This document shows, piece by piece, positions 1-13,913 of a stretch of DNA of 64,000 bases. A program made the position numbers and the translations under genes. The DNA is from Ruminococcus sp. YE71. Lineage in GTDB: Bacteria; Bacillota; Clostridia; Oscillospirales; Ruminococcaceae. The notes beneath the pieces are model-generated. The model did no database searches and had not been told where the DNA came from. It was given only the letters and a program-made list of their open reading frames with translations. Numbering within the stretch: the first letter of the stretch is position 1; the number at the start of each line of letters is the position of its first letter. Where the stretch lies: assembly GCF_900119155.1 (NCBI RefSeq), contig NZ_FPIR01000011.1, positions 1 through 64,000 of the forward strand. Reading direction: 5' to 3'.

Positions 1-2
1 AG

Positions 3-392
3 CTCTTAGCAGATAATCCCGACTATCTTGAACAGGTCAAGGAGCTGCCAAGAAAGATGTACAGCGGTAAAATGGCGTCAACACGGAAGGGATATTTCTT
101 CTGCTATGAACTGCCTACCAAGAGAGCTGACGGCTCATGGTCGGACGGCGACGGTATTTACCGTTGGTATGTGGTTGATCCGGAAACTAATCAGGTCACG
201 GAAGATCTGCATGAGATATGGACTGCTATCAAGTGCGAGCGTGAAGAGAGCAGAGCCTTTAACGCTAATGAGGAGCAGTTCTCCGAGATACGCAAAGTGA
301 TAGAGAATTACATTAAGAAGAATTATCTGAAAGCAATACAAGCGCCTATGGGCAAAAAAGCCAAGTTGGTTACATGGCTTCAGATGATATAA
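3..392 (+). CDS. C-terminal end of a probable SNF2/DEAD-type helicase (partial)
   Basis: The reading frame is open from the first bases of the window, so the gene starts upstream and only about 129 C-terminal residues are visible. The tail has a YFFCYELP stretch, a RWYVVDPET stretch and ends in KKAKLVTWLQMI. I recall similar tails on helicase-related proteins encoded before large adenine methyltransferases in type ISP-like or DISARM-like systems, but no helicase motif lies in the visible part, so this is an inference from context. The stop lies 12 bases before the methyltransferase start, suggesting one operon. The sequence upstream of the window would settle the identity. Confidence 0.5.
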   Translation, partial: LLADNPDYLEQVKELPRKMYSGKMASTRKGYFFCYELPTKRADGSWSDGDGIYRWYVVDPETNQVTEDLHEIWTAIKCEREESRAFNANEEQFSEIRKVIENYIKKNYLKAIQAPMGKKAKLVTWLQMI

Positions 393-404
393 GGGGTAAC
401 AGAT

Positions 405-3400
405 ATGGATATCAGAAATATAAAGAGCGTAGATGATCTTATCATATACTTCACCGAGGAACTGAACTGGAACATCGACCTTGATGATTTTGATGAGATC
501 GACGATATTACATACGATTTTGATGCTGCTGACATTGGTTTGAAACCTGATGCTTTTGCGAAAATCAAGAATCTCCGCCAGTTACAGCCGTTTTGCGACG
601 AGCAGAAATGGGGCATCTTCTGCGTAGAGTTCGACAGCAACAAGTTTGAAGTGTCGGCACTCCGTAAGATACTGTCAGGACTTATCCCAAAGAGAAGAAA
701 TGCCGCTGAACACGCTGTATGGTCGCAGAAAGACCTTCTGTTCCTTTGTTTCTGGGGGACGGATAATAACCGCACTATCGGTATCGCACATTTTGAGGAT
801 AAGATCGCAGGACTTCCGCAGATAAAAATGATCTCCTGTGCGCCTGCGGTTGAGGACTTCACGCAGATACGAACTTTTGAAGATCGCATCGGGCATTTGT
901 CATGGGTGAAAGATGTTACAGACACGCAGGCATGGTATGAACAGTGGTCATCGGCGTTTGTGACAGCATATCATCAGGTTATCAGGGACTCCGCTTCGCT
1001 TACTGTAAAGCTGGCGGCGGAGGCTCAGGCTATCCGTGACCGTATTCTTGACATTTACGCTGTCGAAACGCATGACGGATATGTGCATAAGCTGTTCAAG
1101 GATTTCAAGGACAATCTTATCCACGATATGACCAAGCAGCAGTTTGCAGATATGTACGCTCAGACCGTTGTTTACGGCTTGTTCTCGGCAAGGTGCATGG
1201 ATAAGACGCAGGACAGCTTCAACGTGAAAGAAGCTATCGCCTGCATTCCGAACACTAATCCGTTCCTGAAAAGACTCATGGAGGAATGTCTTGGCGAGAG
1301 CAGTGAGCGACACCTGACCTTTGACGAGCTGGAAGTTGCGAATGTTGTGGAGATACTCACGCACACTAACACCGACCTGATACTTGCCGACTTCAACCGT
1401 CAGACGGGCGGCGGTCGTGAAGACCCTGTTATCCATTTCTATGAGGAATTTCTGACCGCATACGACAAGGCACAGAAGGTGCAGAGGGGCGTTTACTATA
1501 CGCCGCAGCCTGTTGTCAATTTCATTGTCAGGGCGGTTGACAGTATTCTGAAAACGGAGTTCGGACTTGCAGACGGTCTGGCATCGGAAGAAACCAAGAC
1601 CGTGAAATATATGCGTGAAAAGATCAGAGGTCAGGGCATGACCGAAGACACAAAGGAAGTACCTGCCGTTCAGATACTTGATCCCGCAACAGGAACGGGA
1701 ACATTCCTGCGTCAGACCATTCTGCAAATATATGATAATTTCAGAGCCAAGCACAAGGGTGAGAGTGAGGAGCAGATCAAGAAGGCATGGAACGAGTATG
1801 TTCCAAAGCACCTGCTGCCACGTCTGAATGGCTTTGAGCTGATGATGGCTCCCTATGCCGTAGCTCACATGAAGCTCGCTATGGTGCTGAAAGATACGGG
1901 CTATGATTTCGGCGGTGACCACCGTCTGAATGTGTTCCTGACCAATTCGCTGGAAGAAGCGGGCAAGGACGATTTTCAGATGACGCTGTTTGATAACGAT
2001 CCGCTGGCGTTTGAGTCTATTGAAGCGAATCAGGCGAAGAAGAATAATGGCATTAACGTGATTATTGGTAATCCGCCATACTCCGGTATATCATCAAACA
2101 ATAATGAGTTTATCGCAAACCTGATAAATGATTATAAATACATAGACGGAGTATACTTTAATGAGCGTAAGCATTGGCTTAACGATGATTATGTAAAGTT
2201 TATAAGGCTGTGTGAGAAAATAATCTCTGAACATGGCAATGGCATTCTTGCATTCATCAATAATCACGCCTTTTTGGACAATCCAACATTTAGATGTATG
2301 AGACATCACTTATTGGAAACTTTTGATGTAATTTATATCGTTGATCTTCATGGCAATGTAATGCGTAAGGAAATCGCTCCAAATGGAGAAAGGGACGAAA
2401 ATGTATTTGATATTATGCAGGGAGTTTCAGTTAATATATTCATCAAGAAATCCACCTCAAAAAGGAATAGTACAGAAGTTTATCACAGTGATGTATTCGG
2501 CGCAAGAAACACAAAATACGAAATCCTAAGCAGTGGTAATGTGACATATTCAAAGATAGAACCAATCGAACCATATTACTTTTTTGTTCAAAAGGATAGC
2601 AGTAATTCGGAAACATATGAATTAGGATTTAGCCTTAGTGATTTATTTATCCATAATGTAACAGGCATTGTTTCAATGGGCGATAGTTTTGCTTATGATG
2701 AAAACGCAGATTTATTATGTGATAGATTGTCAAGATTATCGAAAATGGAATATAATGAGGAGTCGCTGAATGAGATTTTTCATTTAGGAAAGAACTATGC
2801 TGATTTCGTAATAAAGAATGCAAAGACCATTGAATTAACCAAAGAACTAATTTGCAAAATTTCTTATAGACCATTTGATGATAAGTATACATATTTTGAT
2901 AATAGGATATTGTGGAGACCAAGAACAGAAGTGATGAAACATATGTTAAAGGACAATATAGCTCTTATAATTCCACGTCAAGCTATTACAGATAATTGGT
3001 CTCATGTAAGTGTCAGCACTTGTTTAGTAGATAACCGTTTCCATTACAGCAACAAAGGCATACCTATTGTTTGTCCGATATTCTTATATGATACTGAATT
3101 TGGAAAAGAAACAAAGCAGCCTAATCTGAAAATGGACATTGTGCATCTGATTGAAGAAAAACTTGGTTTACCTTTTGCAACAGAATCACAAGATAAATCT
3201 GTTTTCACTCCGATTGATTTACTTGATTATATCTATGCTATTCTTCATTCGCCAAATTACCGTGAGAAATACAAAGAGTTCCTGAAAATCGACTTTCCCC
3301 GTGTGCCATACCCAACAGATCAGGAAACCTTCTGGAAACTGGTCGAGATCGGCGGCAAGCTGAGAAAATGCCACCTGATGCAGACCGAGTTCGATACCGA

Positions 3401-3677
3401 ACCGTACAGCTTTATCGGTGACGGCACAAACGAGGTCGTCAAGCCCGAATACAAAAACGGCAGGGTGTACATCAGCAAGACACAGTATTTCGACAACGTA
3501 CCGCAGGCACAGTGGGAGCAGTACATAGGCGGTTACCAGCCGTTGCAGAAGTGGCTCAAAGACCGCAAGAAGACTGCGCTCTCCGCTGAGGACATTGAGC
3601 ATTACAAGAAGATCATCGCAGCTCTCAGGCTCACCGAGGAGCTTATGGCGGAGATTGATCAGGTTGTGGAGTTCTGA
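405..3677 (+). CDS. Type ISP-like N6-adenine DNA methyltransferase with specificity domain
   Basis: A 1090-residue protein of a restriction-modification or related anti-phage system, expected to methylate adenine from S-adenosylmethionine. Seen in the sequence: an N-terminal region of about 170 residues, a helical linker, the SAM-binding motif ILDPATGTGTF starting near residue 424, the catalytic NPPY motif at residues 556-559, and a long C-terminal target-recognition part. No nuclease or helicase motif is evident in this chain, so cleavage or translocation would come from another subunit, perhaps the truncated upstream gene. Bases from about 2090 to 3230, covering the recognition part, are clearly richer in A+T than the two ends of the gene, which fits exchange of specificity modules. 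An AAGGGG site precedes the chosen ATG. The exact system (type ISP, DISARM-like or orphan) is not settled here. Confidence 0.8.
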   Translation: MDIRNIKSVDDLIIYFTEELNWNIDLDDFDEIDDITYDFDAADIGLKPDAFAKIKNLRQLQPFCDEQKWGIFCVEFDSNKFEVSALRKILSGLIPKRRNAAEHAVWSQKDLLFLCFWGTDNNRTIGIAHFEDKIAGLPQIKMISCAPAVEDFTQIRTFEDRIGHLSWVKDVTDTQAWYEQWSSAFVTAYHQVIRDSASLTVKLAAEAQAIRDRILDIYAVETHDGYVHKLFKDFKDNLIHDMTKQQFADMYAQTVVYGLFSARCMDKTQDSFNVKEAIACIPNTNPFLKRLMEECLGESSERHLTFDELEVANVVEILTHTNTDLILADFNRQTGGGREDPVIHFYEEFLTAYDKAQKVQRGVYYTPQPVVNFIVRAVDSILKTEFGLADGLASEETKTVKYMREKIRGQGMTEDTKEVPAVQILDPATGTGTFLRQTILQIYDNFRAKHKGESEEQIKKAWNEYVPKHLLPRLNGFELMMAPYAVAHMKLAMVLKDTGYDFGGDHRLNVFLTNSLEEAGKDDFQMTLFDNDPLAFESIEANQAKKNNGINVIIGNPPYSGISSNNNEFIANLINDYKYIDGVYFNERKHWLNDDYVKFIRLCEKIISEHGNGILAFINNHAFLDNPTFRCMRHHLLETFDVIYIVDLHGNVMRKEIAPNGERDENVFDIMQGVSVNIFIKKSTSKRNSTEVYHSDVFGARNTKYEILSSGNVTYSKIEPIEPYYFFVQKDSSNSETYELGFSLSDLFIHNVTGIVSMGDSFAYDENADLLCDRLSRLSKMEYNEESLNEIFHLGKNYADFVIKNAKTIELTKELICKISYRPFDDKYTYFDNRILWRPRTEVMKHMLKDNIALIIPRQAITDNWSHVSVSTCLVDNRFHYSNKGIPIVCPIFLYDTEFGKETKQPNLKMDIVHLIEEKLGLPFATESQDKSVFTPIDLLDYIYAILHSPNYREKYKEFLKIDFPRVPYPTDQETFWKLVEIGGKLRKCHLMQTEFDTEPYSFIGDGTNEVVKPEYKNGRVYISKTQYFDNVPQAQWEQYIGGYQPLQKWLKDRKKTALSAEDIEHYKKIIAALRLTEELMAEIDQVVEF

Positions 3678-3684
3678 ATAATGC

Positions 3685-3724
3685 AAAAAGTACAGATACC
3701 TCATGTGGAGTATCTGTACTTTTT
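3685..3724 (+). terminator. Rho-independent terminator after the methyltransferase
   Basis: A perfect 15-bp stem (3685-3699 with 3710-3724) with a 10-base loop, ending in a run of T. It begins 7 bases after the methyltransferase stop and separates that unit from the CBASS promoter. Confidence 0.9.
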
Positions 3725-3736
3725 ATATAACGACTA

Positions 3737-3765
3737 TTGACATTTTTCTCGATAAGTGCTATACT
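3737..3765 (+). promoter_or_regulatory. Sigma-A promoter of the CBASS operon
   Basis: TTGACA at 3737-3742, a 17-base spacer, and TATACT at 3760-3765. This is close to the vegetative consensus and would start transcription around 3772, inside the CIRCE element. Confidence 0.85.
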
Positions 3766-3769
3766 AAGA

Positions 3770-3796
3770 TTAGCACTCGACGCACAAGAGTGCTAA
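3770..3796 (+). promoter_or_regulatory. Perfect CIRCE operator (HrcA binding site) of the CBASS operon
   Basis: The left arm TTAGCACTC (3770-3778) and right arm GAGTGCTAA (3788-3796) are separated by exactly 9 bases. This is identical to the CIRCE consensus TTAGCACTC-N9-GAGTGCTAA bound by the heat-shock repressor HrcA, which usually controls groESL and dnaK in Firmicutes. It starts 5 bases after the -10 box and covers the expected transcription start, the classic position for repression. The next gene is the CD-NTase, with no chaperone gene between. Control by HrcA is inferred from the sequence match. Confidence 0.93.
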
Positions 3797-3817
3797 AATC
3801 TAATGGAGGATTCTATT

Positions 3818-5029
3818 ATGAACATTTCTGAACGTCAGAAGGATTTCCTGTCAGTTGTTGAAAAAATGGATATTTCGCCAACACTATTTAAGAATGCTCA
3901 AAGCAAATATGAAGCCCTTGCTGCGTTCTTAGATGAACATGGTATTGAGGCAACCATATATCCACAGGGCTCATTTGCATTAGGAACGGTTACTCGTCCT
4001 GCAAAGAAGGCTGATAGTCCAAGCTATGATCTTGATTGTATTTGTCAGGTTACTGGAACAAAGTCAGATTACACCCCGAGTGGTTTGAGAAACCTAATTG
4101 AAGACACACTGAAAGGTAATGATACTTATGGCGGAAAGCTTGTGAAGTGGGAGGAATGCTTTACTATTGAGTATGCTGATATCAATGGTGTTAGCTTTTC
4201 AATTGATTTAGTTCCGGCAGTAAGCGATACCGATTCTGAAAAAGCAGCACTCATTACAAAAGGGTTGAGTCCACAAATTGTTGATACAAGCATTGCAATT
4301 CCACGGCAGAATTCTGAAAAAAGCTATCGTTGGATTTCAAATAATCCCAAAGGCTTTAAAAAGTGGTTTGATGAAATTAACGCTCCGTTCTTAATGTATG
4401 CTCCCAAATACATAGAACGTGGCATATTTGAAAGTGCTACTGCTGAGGAATTACCAAATGAGATAAGACGCTCTGCTCTACAAAGGGTTATACAGATTTT
4501 GAAATATCAGCGCGATGCATATTATTCCAATCTTTCTGATGGTGACGAGATTAAACCGATTTCTGCATTGATAACGACAATGGCTACTCGAATCGCATCT
4601 AACTACGAAAAAAAGAATTGTTCTGTATTTGAGTTGCTGGAATATGTGCTGAATAGACTTGAGATGTGCATTCACCAAACCGAAATGACTTTTGAACAAT
4701 ATGCTTTGCGGTATGATAATTCTCCAGTATTATCCTATAAAAGCGGAAAATGGAGTGTCCCGAATCCCGCTGATCCCGATGATAATCTTGCGAATAAATG
4801 GAACGATGATGCAAGAATACCTAAGAGCTTTTTTAAATGGGTTACAGCTATTAAAACAGACCTTTTTGAAGTGCTGACTCAGAAAGACGACAATCAATTT
4901 GGTGTTGTCTTGGAGAATAGTTTTGCAAATTATGATCCTAACAATCCGATCATCAAAAAATACAGAAAGGCTCGTATTGCAACACCTATCAATGCTTCAA
5001 CAGCTTCAAAGCCTTATCATTGCTCATGA
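3818..5029 (+). CDS. CD-NTase (cGAS-like cyclic oligonucleotide synthase) of a CBASS system
   Basis: A 403-residue nucleotidyltransferase that, in this family, senses phage infection and makes a cyclic di- or trinucleotide alarm signal. The active site is intact: GS at residues 51-52 in the stretch PQGSFALGT, DLD at 71-73, and a third acidic residue, D130, in FSIDLVP. The C-terminal half is helical, as in SMODS-type synthases. The ATG at 3818 is chosen over one at 3803 because GGAGGA lies 7 bases upstream of it, while the first ATG overlaps that site. The stop overlaps the next start (ATGA). The C-terminus ends in KPYHCS; in E2-bearing CBASS the C-terminus of this enzyme is the piece conjugated to targets. 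I do not assign a clade or product. Confidence 0.9.
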   Translation: MNISERQKDFLSVVEKMDISPTLFKNAQSKYEALAAFLDEHGIEATIYPQGSFALGTVTRPAKKADSPSYDLDCICQVTGTKSDYTPSGLRNLIEDTLKGNDTYGGKLVKWEECFTIEYADINGVSFSIDLVPAVSDTDSEKAALITKGLSPQIVDTSIAIPRQNSEKSYRWISNNPKGFKKWFDEINAPFLMYAPKYIERGIFESATAEELPNEIRRSALQRVIQILKYQRDAYYSNLSDGDEIKPISALITTMATRIASNYEKKNCSVFELLEYVLNRLEMCIHQTEMTFEQYALRYDNSPVLSYKSGKWSVPNPADPDDNLANKWNDDARIPKSFFKWVTAIKTDLFEVLTQKDDNQFGVVLENSFANYDPNNPIIKKYRKARIATPINASTASKPYHCS

Positions 5030-5709
5030 GAATAGACTATAATCATATCAAACCGCAGATTGATGAACTTCTTACATCATATGGCGGCCTGAAGGAAGAA
5101 AATACTGATAAAAATACATCAATTATTCTTTCTGGAAAAGTACAAATTAATCGTTCCTACAATAATTTCACTGTAGATAATGAATATGAACTCAAAATTC
5201 TTATTCCGCTAAACAATGAAGAATTACCCGACGTGTGGGATATCGGGAATCATATTGATAAAACATATATTCACCGATATCCAGATGGCGAGCTTTGTTT
5301 AGAAACAGAAGCATACATAGCTTTGTGCTTCTATAATGGGTATAGTCTATTGCAATGGATGAAAAACATAGTTGAACCATACTACTTTTCTTATGAGTAT
5401 TACACTAGATTTGGAGAGTTCCCATTTGGAGATAGAGGACACGATCTTGATGGTGTAATAGAGACATATCAGCAAATTTTTCATGAGAATGATCTTGTCA
5501 AATGCGTTAAACTGCTTCATGCCATATCACAAAGGAAATACAAAGGTCATTTACCTTGCCCATGTGAATCAGGTTTGATTACAAGAAAGTGTCATGGAAG
5601 ATTTATATATCCATTTATAAGCGATGACTATATGTTTTCCATTGCACAAAAAGACTATTCGAGATTATGTGAGGCGATAAAAGAGTATGATAAACAGTCA
5701 AATCATTAG
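5026..5709 (+). CDS. E2-like conjugating protein with SEC-C motif (type II-short CBASS)
   Basis: A 227-residue protein. Residues 83-92 read HRYPDGELCL, the signature of bacterial E2-fold proteins, with C91 the likely catalytic cysteine that carries the CD-NTase C-terminus as a thioester. Residues 178-190 form a SEC-C-like zinc motif (C178, C180, C189, H190). No E1-like or JAB protease gene is present, matching the short type II CBASS layout with E2 alone. The start overlaps the CD-NTase stop by 4 bases, so translation is probably coupled. The role as a conjugase that primes the CD-NTase comes from the family and the context; the SEC-C module may bind a partner or a target. Confidence 0.8.
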   Translation: MRIDYNHIKPQIDELLTSYGGLKEENTDKNTSIILSGKVQINRSYNNFTVDNEYELKILIPLNNEELPDVWDIGNHIDKTYIHRYPDGELCLETEAYIALCFYNGYSLLQWMKNIVEPYYFSYEYYTRFGEFPFGDRGHDLDGVIETYQQIFHENDLVKCVKLLHAISQRKYKGHLPCPCESGLITRKCHGRFIYPFISDDYMFSIAQKDYSRLCEAIKEYDKQSNH

Positions 5710-6544
5710 CAATCGTCAAAATGAAGACCTGTTATTGAAGATTCAGTATGCTTCAAGAAGGTATTTCAATTCGGCGGAAAAGTTCAATTATTTGAGTTGG
5801 GTATTATGTATAGCGTCTGCTGCGATGATATTTGTTCCTGATTCAGCTCCAGAGCTTTTCAGTAACGGGATACCTGCGGTATTAGAAGTTTTTGCATTTG
5901 TAACTGCTTGCATTTTTAATAGTAAGCTAAAGAACGCTGCTTCTCTGCGCAATTATTTTGATTCTTATGTTTTAATGATAGACGAAGATAGTTATACAAA
6001 TATTCATAAACAGAAGCTTAGAGAAATCGCCTTAGCCACATATAATAGGTACAAAAAAGAAGCGGATATCCACATTCATAATACTGGTCGTGACAAACCA
6101 CCAGGTGTAAAGAACTGGTATGAGTTTAAAAATCCTGTAGCTGATCGTCAAGCTCAATTTGAATGTCAAAAACAGAATATTTGGTGGAATAAAAAGATGG
6201 TTAAAAATCGCATGATTCTTTTATCTATTATTTTGTTTATACTTATTTCGTTTTTTGTCACTATGTTTGCCTTATTCAAATCTGATGCACTAAGTATTAT
6301 TGTTTGTGCAATCGGAATAATACTGAAAGTTGTTGAAAGAATTATTGAACACTATTCTTATCACAAAACATCCATTAAGATAGAAGCTATCCAAAGTCAC
6401 GCTGAAAGAGAATTAACAGCTGAAACTGTAAAGGAGTTACAAGAACTAATTAATGGAAGACGAGAAATACCAGTTCTTGAAATAAACATTATTCATAAAC
6501 TAAAAGCTAAGCGATACTCTTCATCGTATGAAGAAACATCATAA
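5687..6544 (+). CDS. S-4TM family pore-forming effector of CBASS
   Basis: A 285-residue membrane protein with two N-terminal hydrophobic segments (about 34-50 and 60-77), a soluble middle part of about 95 residues, and two more segments (about 176-197 and 200-216), followed by a charged tail. This matches the S-4TM effector family, thought to breach the inner membrane when activated by the cyclic nucleotide, killing the infected cell. The start overlaps the E2 gene by 23 bases in another frame, and no better start exists, so the three genes form a tight operon. The AT-rich composition matches the other two CBASS genes and contrasts with ackA next door. Confidence 0.82.
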   Translation: MINSQIISNRQNEDLLLKIQYASRRYFNSAEKFNYLSWVLCIASAAMIFVPDSAPELFSNGIPAVLEVFAFVTACIFNSKLKNAASLRNYFDSYVLMIDEDSYTNIHKQKLREIALATYNRYKKEADIHIHNTGRDKPPGVKNWYEFKNPVADRQAQFECQKQNIWWNKKMVKNRMILLSIILFILISFFVTMFALFKSDALSIIVCAIGIILKVVERIIEHYSYHKTSIKIEAIQSHAERELTAETVKELQELINGRREIPVLEINIIHKLKAKRYSSSYEETS

Positions 6545-6546
6545 TG

Positions 6547-6590
6547 AAAACAGGCAGAACTTCGAAATAGAAGCTCTGCCTGTTTTGTTT
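6547..6590 (+). terminator. Terminator at the end of the CBASS operon
   Basis: A 12-bp perfect stem (6547-6558 with 6575-6586) flanked by A and T runs, 3 bases after the effector stop. It could also serve the convergent ackA gene. Confidence 0.85.
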
Positions 6591-6682
6591 AATAGCCTGC
6601 TGTAAAGGTCTTGCTTATAGTTGTTGGAATAAAACTTCTATATGAGCGCAATCCTTTTTCGTTCGGCTTTTGTTGGTATTTC

Positions 6683-12332: not shown

Positions 12333-13913
12333 TTAATCGATCACTACATCGTTAAGGTTAATTTCATTCAGATAGCCAAGGTCTCGAAGCTTCTGAGCTA
12401 ATTCCTTGCACTCTTCATTGCTAAATGTCATTGTCTGGCTGTGACGGATGTACTCGCAATACTTTACGCCGTTTTTGAAATCATAAGCGTGATCAGGATC
12501 ACCGGCTGTAGATTCAACGGTGCTGATACTCAGATAAACATCATGGGTATCATCATAGTTTACCCTGCTGTAAAAATCACCGTTCCAGAGCATATGCAGA
12601 TAATCATCGAAGCTCTTGGGCTTTGAAACGTAGGCGTCCTGTATCAGCCTTGAAGCCTCACGTATCTGAGCGTCAGAAAGAGTGGAGAGGTCAAGCAGTT
12701 CTTCACTGAGATTTTTCTCATTTCTATGGATCTCTGCCCATTTCTCACAGTCGTAGCTTACGAACTCAAAGCGTTGATATTCTCCATTTTCATTATAATA
12801 GACCGAAATATCAAGCAGAGCTTTATCAAGGTTTCTCATAGGAAGACTCTTAACAAGTCCGAAGCCGTTTGTTACATAAGCTATACCCATGAAGATAACG
12901 AACACCGCCGAGGTAGCCGCATATTTGAGCAGCCATACCATAAAGCTGCGGAGGGTGAGCTTTGCACGGGTGACGATGATGTGGATAACAATGTAGATTA
13001 TCGCCACAACAACAAGTCCGTAAACGCCGTCTAAATTGAACAGCACCATGCTGTAAACGGTGAACACGCCCATGACAAGCAGCAGCTCAAAGAAGAAGCG
13101 GCTTACTATCGGAGCGCCTACCGAGCTTGCGTCACGCCTGCGGTAGATAAACACCGTTGCTGCCATTACTGCGACAGAAACAAGACTGTTTATAACTGTG
13201 TAGAATATAAAGCTTGAATCTTCTGCAAGTGCTACGAACGAGTATGTCCATATACCGACAAAGTGCGGAATATCGAACATATCAAGTCCTGCAAAATTTT
13301 CTACAAGCAGGTGGAAAATGAATATCGGAAGAACCGAGGTGCAGAACATCATTATCACAGTGAAGTAAATGCTTTCTGCAAACGCACCGCAGCAGCAGGT
13401 GCAGACTATCGTGATAGCGTCAGTGAATAATGCAGCTGTAAGAGCTCCCATGAATATTTGCAGGTTCACGCTGCCGTCAACACCGTGTGTAGCGCAAAGT
13501 ATGCCGCCGTAAAGCATTGCGATGCCTGTGTAAACTATGACGGGAAGAATATGTGAATAGCACATAGCCAAAAGCTTTGAGAAGTAGCGCTGATTCGCAC
13601 TCATAGGAAGCGAGTGCTGAACGTCGCAGATCTGCTGATTCGTCATGTCACGGAAAATGCCTACCGCTCCGAAAATGCCCATGAGCGAGCCTGCCGCTAT
13701 AAGTGCAAAGCCGAACCACGAGGGCGAGAACCCTTCTGCCACCTGATTTTCCAGCTGGTCAAGGTAGTCATACTGCGAATAAAAGCCGCTCATCAGAGCA
13801 TACATCAAAGCTCCCGTTGCAAGCAGTATATTTGTTACAATAAAGAATTTCTTGTGCGTCCGCACCTCAGCTAAAGCCGCCTTATTTATCGTTTGGAACA
13901 CATTCGCTGCCAT
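12333..13913 (-). CDS. ABC transporter permease (ABC-2 type)
   Basis: A 526-residue polytopic protein with about nine hydrophobic segments between residues 24 and 370 and a hydrophilic C-terminal domain of about 150 residues. It is encoded just after the ATPase, overlapping it by 32 bases, so it is the membrane partner of that ATPase. The layout GntR, ATPase, permease matches YtrA/BcrA-type exporters linked to cell-envelope stress and antimicrobial peptides. The substrate is unknown. The large soluble tail is unusual for a plain ABC-2 permease and may face the outside. Confidence 0.8.
   Translation of the reverse strand: MAANVFQTINKAALAEVRTHKKFFIVTNILLATGALMYALMSGFYSQYDYLDQLENQVAEGFSPSWFGFALIAAGSLMGIFGAVGIFRDMTNQQICDVQHSLPMSANQRYFSKLLAMCYSHILPVIVYTGIAMLYGGILCATHGVDGSVNLQIFMGALTAALFTDAITIVCTCCCGAFAESIYFTVIMMFCTSVLPIFIFHLLVENFAGLDMFDIPHFVGIWTYSFVALAEDSSFIFYTVINSLVSVAVMAATVFIYRRRDASSVGAPIVSRFFFELLLVMGVFTVYSMVLFNLDGVYGLVVVAIIYIVIHIIVTRAKLTLRSFMVWLLKYAATSAVFVIFMGIAYVTNGFGLVKSLPMRNLDKALLDISVYYNENGEYQRFEFVSYDCEKWAEIHRNEKNLSEELLDLSTLSDAQIREASRLIQDAYVSKPKSFDDYLHMLWNGDFYSRVNYDDTHDVYLSISTVESTAGDPDHAYDFKNGVKYCEYIRHSQTMTFSNEECKELAQKLRDLGYLNEINLNDVVID

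Follow-up and report, generated by a model that had tools for sequence, protein, structure and literature searches.

A CBASS operon of Ruminococcus sp. YE71 behind a perfect CIRCE operator and its predicted membership of the host HrcA regulon

A CBASS operon of Ruminococcus sp. YE71 lies directly behind a perfect copy of CIRCE, the operator of the heat-shock repressor HrcA, and, judging from the sequence, the operon probably belongs to the HrcA regulon of its host and would be de-repressed on GroEL overload. Gabija, an unrelated defence operon of the same genome, appears to be wired in the same way. The window analysed here is a stretch of 64,000 nucleotides that begins at the start of its contig in a draft assembly of 43 contigs; the parts of the CBASS locus given below with window positions lie on its forward strand. 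An earlier note on this DNA had placed the CBASS operon behind a CIRCE/HrcA operator, and this proposal is strongly supported at the level of sequence by the exact operator, by the spacing of the promoter, by the presence of hrcA, by both intact close relatives of the operon (2/2) and by Gabija. That note had not noticed the Gabija operon behind CIRCE, nor the junctions or the htpG promoter duplicate that are described below.

The promoter is of the sigma-A type (TTGACA-17-TATACT, 3737-3765, with TTGACA at 3737-3742 and TATACT at 3760-3765) and is followed, after the four bases AAGA, by CIRCE at 3770-3796, which reads TTAGCACTC-GACGCACAA-GAGTGCTAA and has no mismatches to the consensus TTAGCACTC-N9-GAGTGCTAA. 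Being only four bases 3' of the -10 box, the operator sits at the promoter or the transcription start, and it is predicted to span the transcription start, whose position is itself a prediction. The ribosome-binding site GGAGG (3805-3809) and the ATG start codon of the CD-NTase gene (3818) come next. The promoter and the ribosome site behind CIRCE are as they had been read before, and the gap between TATACT and CIRCE, formerly given as five bases, is corrected to four. The claim of a perfect CIRCE stands as well: under a dinucleotide model trained on the window together with six other YE71 loci, approximately 5e-5 exact sites are expected by chance per genome of 4.07 Mb. The site at 3770-3796 is the sole CIRCE without mismatches in the window, where two matches with at most three mismatches are present and 0.04 are expected from shuffles; the second of them (13594-13620, two mismatches) was set aside, as it lies inside a coding frame. 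The reversed CIRCE pattern has no match in the YE71 genome at up to three mismatches and none in 46 genomes at up to one mismatch, and at up to two mismatches it was matched in one of 13 genomes, at one site. Inverted repeats that are perfect over a 9-9-9 layout, whatever their sequence, are no rarity, as six occur in the window, and the evidence therefore consists in the exact CIRCE sequence and its placement and not in palindromy.

The operon behind this promoter encodes a CD-NTase, or oligonucleotide cyclase (3818-5029; Pfam SMODS, 9.8e-11; PADLOC Cyclase, 7.4e-86), an E2-like CBASS ancillary protein (5026-5709; PADLOC E2, 8.2e-104) and a 4TM membrane effector (5687-6544; Pfam S_4TM, 3.5e-16; PADLOC 4TM, 1.3e-14), and a hairpin followed by a T run (6547-6586) is read as its terminator. 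The CD-NTase is related to the PDB sequences 9woo, 8hsb and 7ljn and has a PHROGs match to one family of unknown function, while the E2-like protein has no Pfam match at a cut-off of 0.01 and no match in the PDB. The gene content, as predicted from sequence, is that of what we take to be a short type II CBASS: the operon contains no separate E1 gene, and the E2 gene is followed by the effector gene and then by acetate kinase on the opposite strand. The gaps on the two sides of the operon, 140 bases separating the CD-NTase gene from the Type ISP gene and 138 bases separating the effector and acetate kinase genes, are of a size into which no gene for a CapW-type WYL repressor fits. The Type ISP restriction-modification gene (405-3677; a methylase with a C-terminal specificity part; Pfam Type_ISP_C, Eco57I and N6_Mtase) is the upstream neighbour and is outside the regulated operon. 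A hairpin and a T run after it (3685-3724), read as a terminator, would set it apart from the CBASS promoter, and the 3' ends of the Type ISP genes at three other loci (L029, L030 and L031) also carry a similar hairpin.

A host that lacks the repressor is excluded, since an hrcA gene was found in the genome (one match, PF01628, 1.4e-45), the product of which matches the HrcA protein of Thermotoga maritima (1stz) across residues 2-185. The hrcA gene is itself preceded by one exact CIRCE and one with three mismatches, and groES, htpG and hsp20 of the same genome (Pfam Cpn10, HSP90 and HSP20) are each located behind a perfect CIRCE. How unusual the position before CBASS is can be seen from a survey of CIRCE sites with at most one mismatch in 43 genomes of the family: 136 of the 138 sites precede hrcA (35), groES (34), htpG (28), hsp20 (26) or clpB (13), and the two exceptions, both in Ruminococcus sp. 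YE71, are the sites before CBASS and before Gabija. The surveyed sites come from 13 genomes of the genus (52 sites), 18 genomes of the family (74 of 75 sites) and 12 more genomes (one site each); 14 of the 46 scanned genomes were outside the survey, one of these being without any site, and an uncounted site (G069:C6:30271) precedes the ClpB-like gene that was used as the clpB reference (L037). A site was counted as being before a gene when a reference match in the correct direction started from -40 to 450 bases from CIRCE; the reference proteins were drawn from the same family and were checked with Pfam. In a crude promoter scan, the -10 box was found four bases before CIRCE at 29 of 35 hrcA, 7 of 34 groES and 3 of 13 clpB sites, and the spacing was scattered for htpG and hsp20, which makes four bases typical of hrcA promoters and not of chaperone promoters at large; the same scan gave four bases for all four defence promoters (those of the window, of its two relatives L064 and L065, and of Gabija).

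In the two genomes that were chosen for holding CBASS relatives, 11 sites with up to two mismatches were found, eight before chaperone genes, two before CBASS and one before neither. Outside the survey, an exact CIRCE in genome G1151 (L292:1501-1527, contig G1151:C8) is not followed by any chaperone or defence gene; it has A and T runs on either side, like a terminator, and its neighbours are presumably smpB and a gene for a TVP38-type membrane protein. Exact CIRCE sites are also present in viral DNA: 104 viral contigs of IMG/VR (L067-L170) carry 114 of them, with 33 located before hsp20, groES or htpG according to reference matches and 81 not, a loose promoter match being present at 14 of these 81. 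At least two of the 81 (L127 and L146) resemble, by their first residues, missed hsp20 and htpG genes. Nine viral loci have two or three CIRCE sites, including three in L091 and two near each other in L102. No close relatives of the CD-NTase were found in the viral contigs.

The second exception, with one mismatch (G000:C18:187211-187237), is the last remaining site of the YE71 genome at up to one mismatch, and it is flanked on one side by the 3' end of a further Type ISP gene and on the other by a GajA-GajB pair (2.7e-213 and 5.6e-171). The pair has the makeup of Gabija, in which GajA, with AAA and TOPRIM parts, adjoins the UvrD-like GajB, and its promoter (TTGACA-17-TATAAT) again has CIRCE four bases downstream. 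The window and the Gabija locus have in common the Type ISP 3' end, the hairpin, the promoter and CIRCE (87% over 3306-3796). The two sites are not independent because this upstream block is common to both, and we infer from the alignment that they go back to one acquisition or to two, the latter not being clear. The Type ISP loci of YE71 (window 1-3796 and L026 in G000:C18) are also 94% alike over 1-2083 and have no match between 2083 and 3306 at the BLAST setting used, a pattern that fits an exchange of the specificity region.

A scan of a collection of 84,980 species genomes, the reach of which is limited to close relatives, gave two intact relatives of the CD-NTase (L064 and L065, both on MAG contigs) and one remnant (L066). 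The L065 CBASS, at 85% protein identity, has a perfect CIRCE before it; in L064, at 94% identity, the operator is TTAGCGCTC-N9-GAGTGCCAA, with two mismatches and a palindrome that is no longer perfect, and in that genome a CIRCE before hsp20 also has A replaced by G at the corresponding place in the arm. Both genomes contain hrcA. No CIRCE with up to three mismatches was found at the remnant, and none with up to four in the stretches fetched for six more distant relatives, several of which have an upstream frame that may place the promoter beyond the stretch: two relatives of the CD-NTase at 30-33% (L059 and L060), two of the E2 protein (L172 and L173) and two of GajA at 70-77% (L062 and L063). 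The CD-NTase was found in 394 genomes of the order only in YE71 and, at 30-33%, in two others, and of 398 genomes of the phylum three had a match to the E2 family, YE71 and two without CIRCE in the fetched stretch. The expectation that relatives' CBASS promoters would also carry CIRCE thus holds for both intact close relatives, one of them with two mismatches, and does not extend to the more distant ones in the stretches fetched for them. Since CIRCE is found only in close relatives and before one Gabija, the wiring is, as far as seen, that of one CBASS lineage and one Gabija and not of whole system families. The idea of CIRCE as a general feature of CBASS was dropped for the same lack in the fetched stretches of more distant relatives, and so was that of a CIRCE inherent to Gabija, as GajA relatives at 70 and 77% are without it in the fetched stretch.

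GroE-dependent control by HrcA is established in Bacillus subtilis and other bacteria (PMC6032397, in its available part): HrcA requires GroE for binding to CIRCE, and the repression is relieved once GroE is titrated by unfolded protein (available parts of PMC6032397 and PMC3828012). Applied to the operon described here, HrcA dimers on CIRCE, over the predicted transcription start, would hold CBASS low as long as the cell is not stressed, and Gabija would be held low by HrcA as well. Once heat, unfolded protein or possibly phage proteins keep GroEL occupied, HrcA would lose its activity, and the CD-NTase, the E2-like protein and the effector would rise alongside the chaperones. A higher level of the proteins is not the same as triggering, as the CD-NTase presumably still requires a phage cue. 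The control would have been acquired when a chaperone-type promoter became fused, at CIRCE or just past it, to defence cargo, so that the cassette would borrow a repressor already present in its hosts, and indeed no regulator gene fits beside the operon. That HrcA binds, represses and permits induction, that events took this order and that the cell benefits are inferences, and the adaptive tie of chaperone load to immunity is no more than plausible.

How the control may have been acquired is suggested by the junctions. In G400, the genome of L065, the region upstream of CBASS is a duplicate of the region upstream of the genome's own htpG: the two promoters differ at 0 of 34, 2 of 80 and 5 of 120 bases before CIRCE, the CIRCE spacer is identical, and the likeness, which is made of five aligned pieces, those further upstream including pieces of 96.5, 93.0 and 88.8%, stops 6 bases 3' of CIRCE. 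The duplicated block (G400:C2:60-1133 and G400:C2:146826-147674; L302 and L303) is found near both extremities of a single contig, the copies being inverted relative to each other. The likeness that BLAST sees between the regions upstream of CBASS and of Gabija stops at 3796, the final base of CIRCE. The window and L064 have the promoter, CIRCE and the start of the gene in common (80% over 98 bases). From these two junctions in draft assemblies it would appear that the CBASS lineage carried the CIRCE promoter and that upstream parts and cargo were later swapped at CIRCE. It had been considered that differing spacers beside identical arms prove purifying selection on the arms, and this argument is weakened because in G400 the sequence upstream is htpG promoter sequence.

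A Type ISP origin of the operator was dropped, as the 3' ends of the Type ISP genes in G007, G398 and G006 keep the hairpin without CIRCE, with the caveat that the G007 and G398 copies are remnants with internal deletions, and as the L065 CBASS carries CIRCE without a preceding Type ISP gene. The deletions in the G398 and G007 remnants (L306 and L308) are large and spare the 3' end and the hairpin. Behind the CBASS terminator, a conserved sequence (6592-6654) with matches at other loci probably marks where a mobile, putatively integrating, element has its right end. It is also present after the Gabija operon (L026:7159-7221), after the L065 CBASS and near the CD-NTase remnant L066; in G007 it comes after the Type ISP remnant, in G306 after a different gene and in G006, in part, after the Type ISP end. 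A 126-base query that included the hairpin had matches in 25 of 332 family genomes, YE71 among them, several of which were to the hairpin half only. The conserved end of about 60 bases, mostly 3' of a hairpin, trails different genes, transporter-like and other frames among them, at loci that include L308, L036 and L310-L339. Upstream of a Type ISP remnant, G398 encodes part of a tyrosine integrase, together with a serine recombinase and a NikA-like mobilisation-like protein (below the Pfam cut-off). The left end of the putative element was not found, and both YE71 copies are near contig ends. A further possibility, in our view less likely than not, is that CIRCE serves mobile defence cassettes as a joint for docking and at the same time supplies them with an off-switch, by which CBASS and Gabija would be silent on arrival and would rise when phage or stress loads GroEL.

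Other explanations of the same arrangement have to be weighed. One is that HrcA does regulate CBASS but to no benefit, the promoter having come along as an accident of landing that will decay. The duplication of the htpG promoter in G400 speaks for such hitch-hiking, as do the drifted operator of L064 with its two mismatches and the six more distant relatives that have no CIRCE in the fetched stretches; however, three CBASS copies and one Gabija have a CIRCE with zero to two mismatches at the four-base spacing, and the promoter, operator and gene start common to the window and L064 suggest retention through transfer, so that we consider a purely accidental promoter rather unlikely. It may also be that CIRCE acts chiefly as a recombination joint, repeated and nearly identical sites of 27 bases allowing modules to be swapped, with regulation being secondary. 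The end of the CBASS/Gabija likeness exactly at 3796 and of the G400 htpG/CBASS likeness 6 bases past CIRCE would be accounted for in this way, but there are only two such junctions, in draft or MAG assemblies where alignment ends are estimates, and no recombinase acting on CIRCE was identified; a chiefly recombinational role is accordingly somewhat improbable in our judgment. It is very unlikely that the palindrome is an RNA hairpin or a terminator-like element and not an operator: the exact CIRCE of G1151 is indeed intergenic with A/T runs on both sides, but the window site has no 3' T run, lies four bases past a promoter and before a ribosome site, and the region 3650-3830 gave 15 weak Rfam matches, none at its gathering score. 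A chance palindrome or an assembly artefact, for which one could invoke the draft state of the 43-contig genome and the location of the window at a contig start, is strongly disfavoured to the point of being negligible by the approximately 5e-5 exact sites expected per genome and by two other assemblies with CIRCE before CBASS, one perfect and one with two mismatches.

Membership of the CBASS operon in the HrcA regulon would bear on the open question of how lethal immune systems stay quiet and which cue raises them. If it is true, the folding capacity of the cell would be an immune cue. Many phages require GroEL, and a cue of chaperone load would therefore be relevant. Heat or GroEL overload would prime immunity, phages with chaperonin parts of their own may escape triggering, and a simple scan would find further defence operons under CIRCE. 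The operon also illustrates concretely how a defence cassette can come to stand behind a stress promoter of its host, and if the docking reading is true, unrelated suicide systems would enter the HrcA regulon of any host with HrcA and would need no travelling regulator gene.

Deletion of hrcA in Lactobacillus plantarum raised groES by only about 2-fold at 28 C, and at 40 C there was hardly any rise (PMC3842655, available part), which suggests that the effect of HrcA on CBASS may be modest. A rise in CBASS expression was unnecessary for protection in the CapW-controlled system (PMC9122588, available part), and the main role of HrcA control may thus be the silencing of the operon. In one study of a Campylobacter phage carrier state, lower expression of hrcA and phage-encoded chaperones were reported (PMC4534711, available part), so phages may also drive the HrcA circuit in the opposite direction.

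The closest known system is the class I heat-shock regulon of HrcA and CIRCE, with which the CBASS operon shares the operator, a chaperone-type promoter and the presence of hrcA in the genome. The known members of that regulon include groES-groEL, hrcA-grpE-dnaK-dnaJ and htpG, and outlying ones have been described: in Clostridium acetobutylicum, CAC2705, a gene for an unknown membrane protein, belongs to it (PMC3828012), and in L. plantarum weaker CIRCE sites were predicted before sorbitol, catalase, bacteriocin, integrase and other genes (PMC3842655). The difference is that CBASS and Gabija are absent among the members described in the available parts of these sources. The open PubMed Central library (preprints and most subscription papers being outside it) contained no paper with both HrcA and CBASS or with both HrcA and Gabija, and neither system appeared under HrcA among the matches listed in wider open-access literature searches.

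The regulators that PMC9122588 and PMC13373217 describe for CBASS and other immune operons (available parts) are associated with the system itself, and their cue is a suggested ligand or DNA damage. In CBASS controlled by CapW, as in the case proposed here, a repressor on a promoter palindrome keeps the system low and phage infection raises expression (PMC9122588); CapW, however, is a WYL protein associated with CBASS with a suggested ligand switch, whereas here the presumed sensor is the host's HrcA together with GroEL. CapK-CapS is alike in that a stress signal relieves the repression of varied immune operons and differs in its signal, DNA damage, and in having genes for its regulators just ahead of the operon (PMC13373217, available part). 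A link between heat shock and defence is known from Streptococcus thermophilus, where hsdR1, hsdS1 and hsdM1 of a restriction-modification system are up on heat shock, but the available part of that report gives only two CIRCE sites, those of the dnaK and groESL operons, and shows no direct control of defence by HrcA (PMC3192767). With short type II CBASS, the operon of Ruminococcus sp. YE71 shares the gene content and order, and what sets it apart is the control of its promoter.
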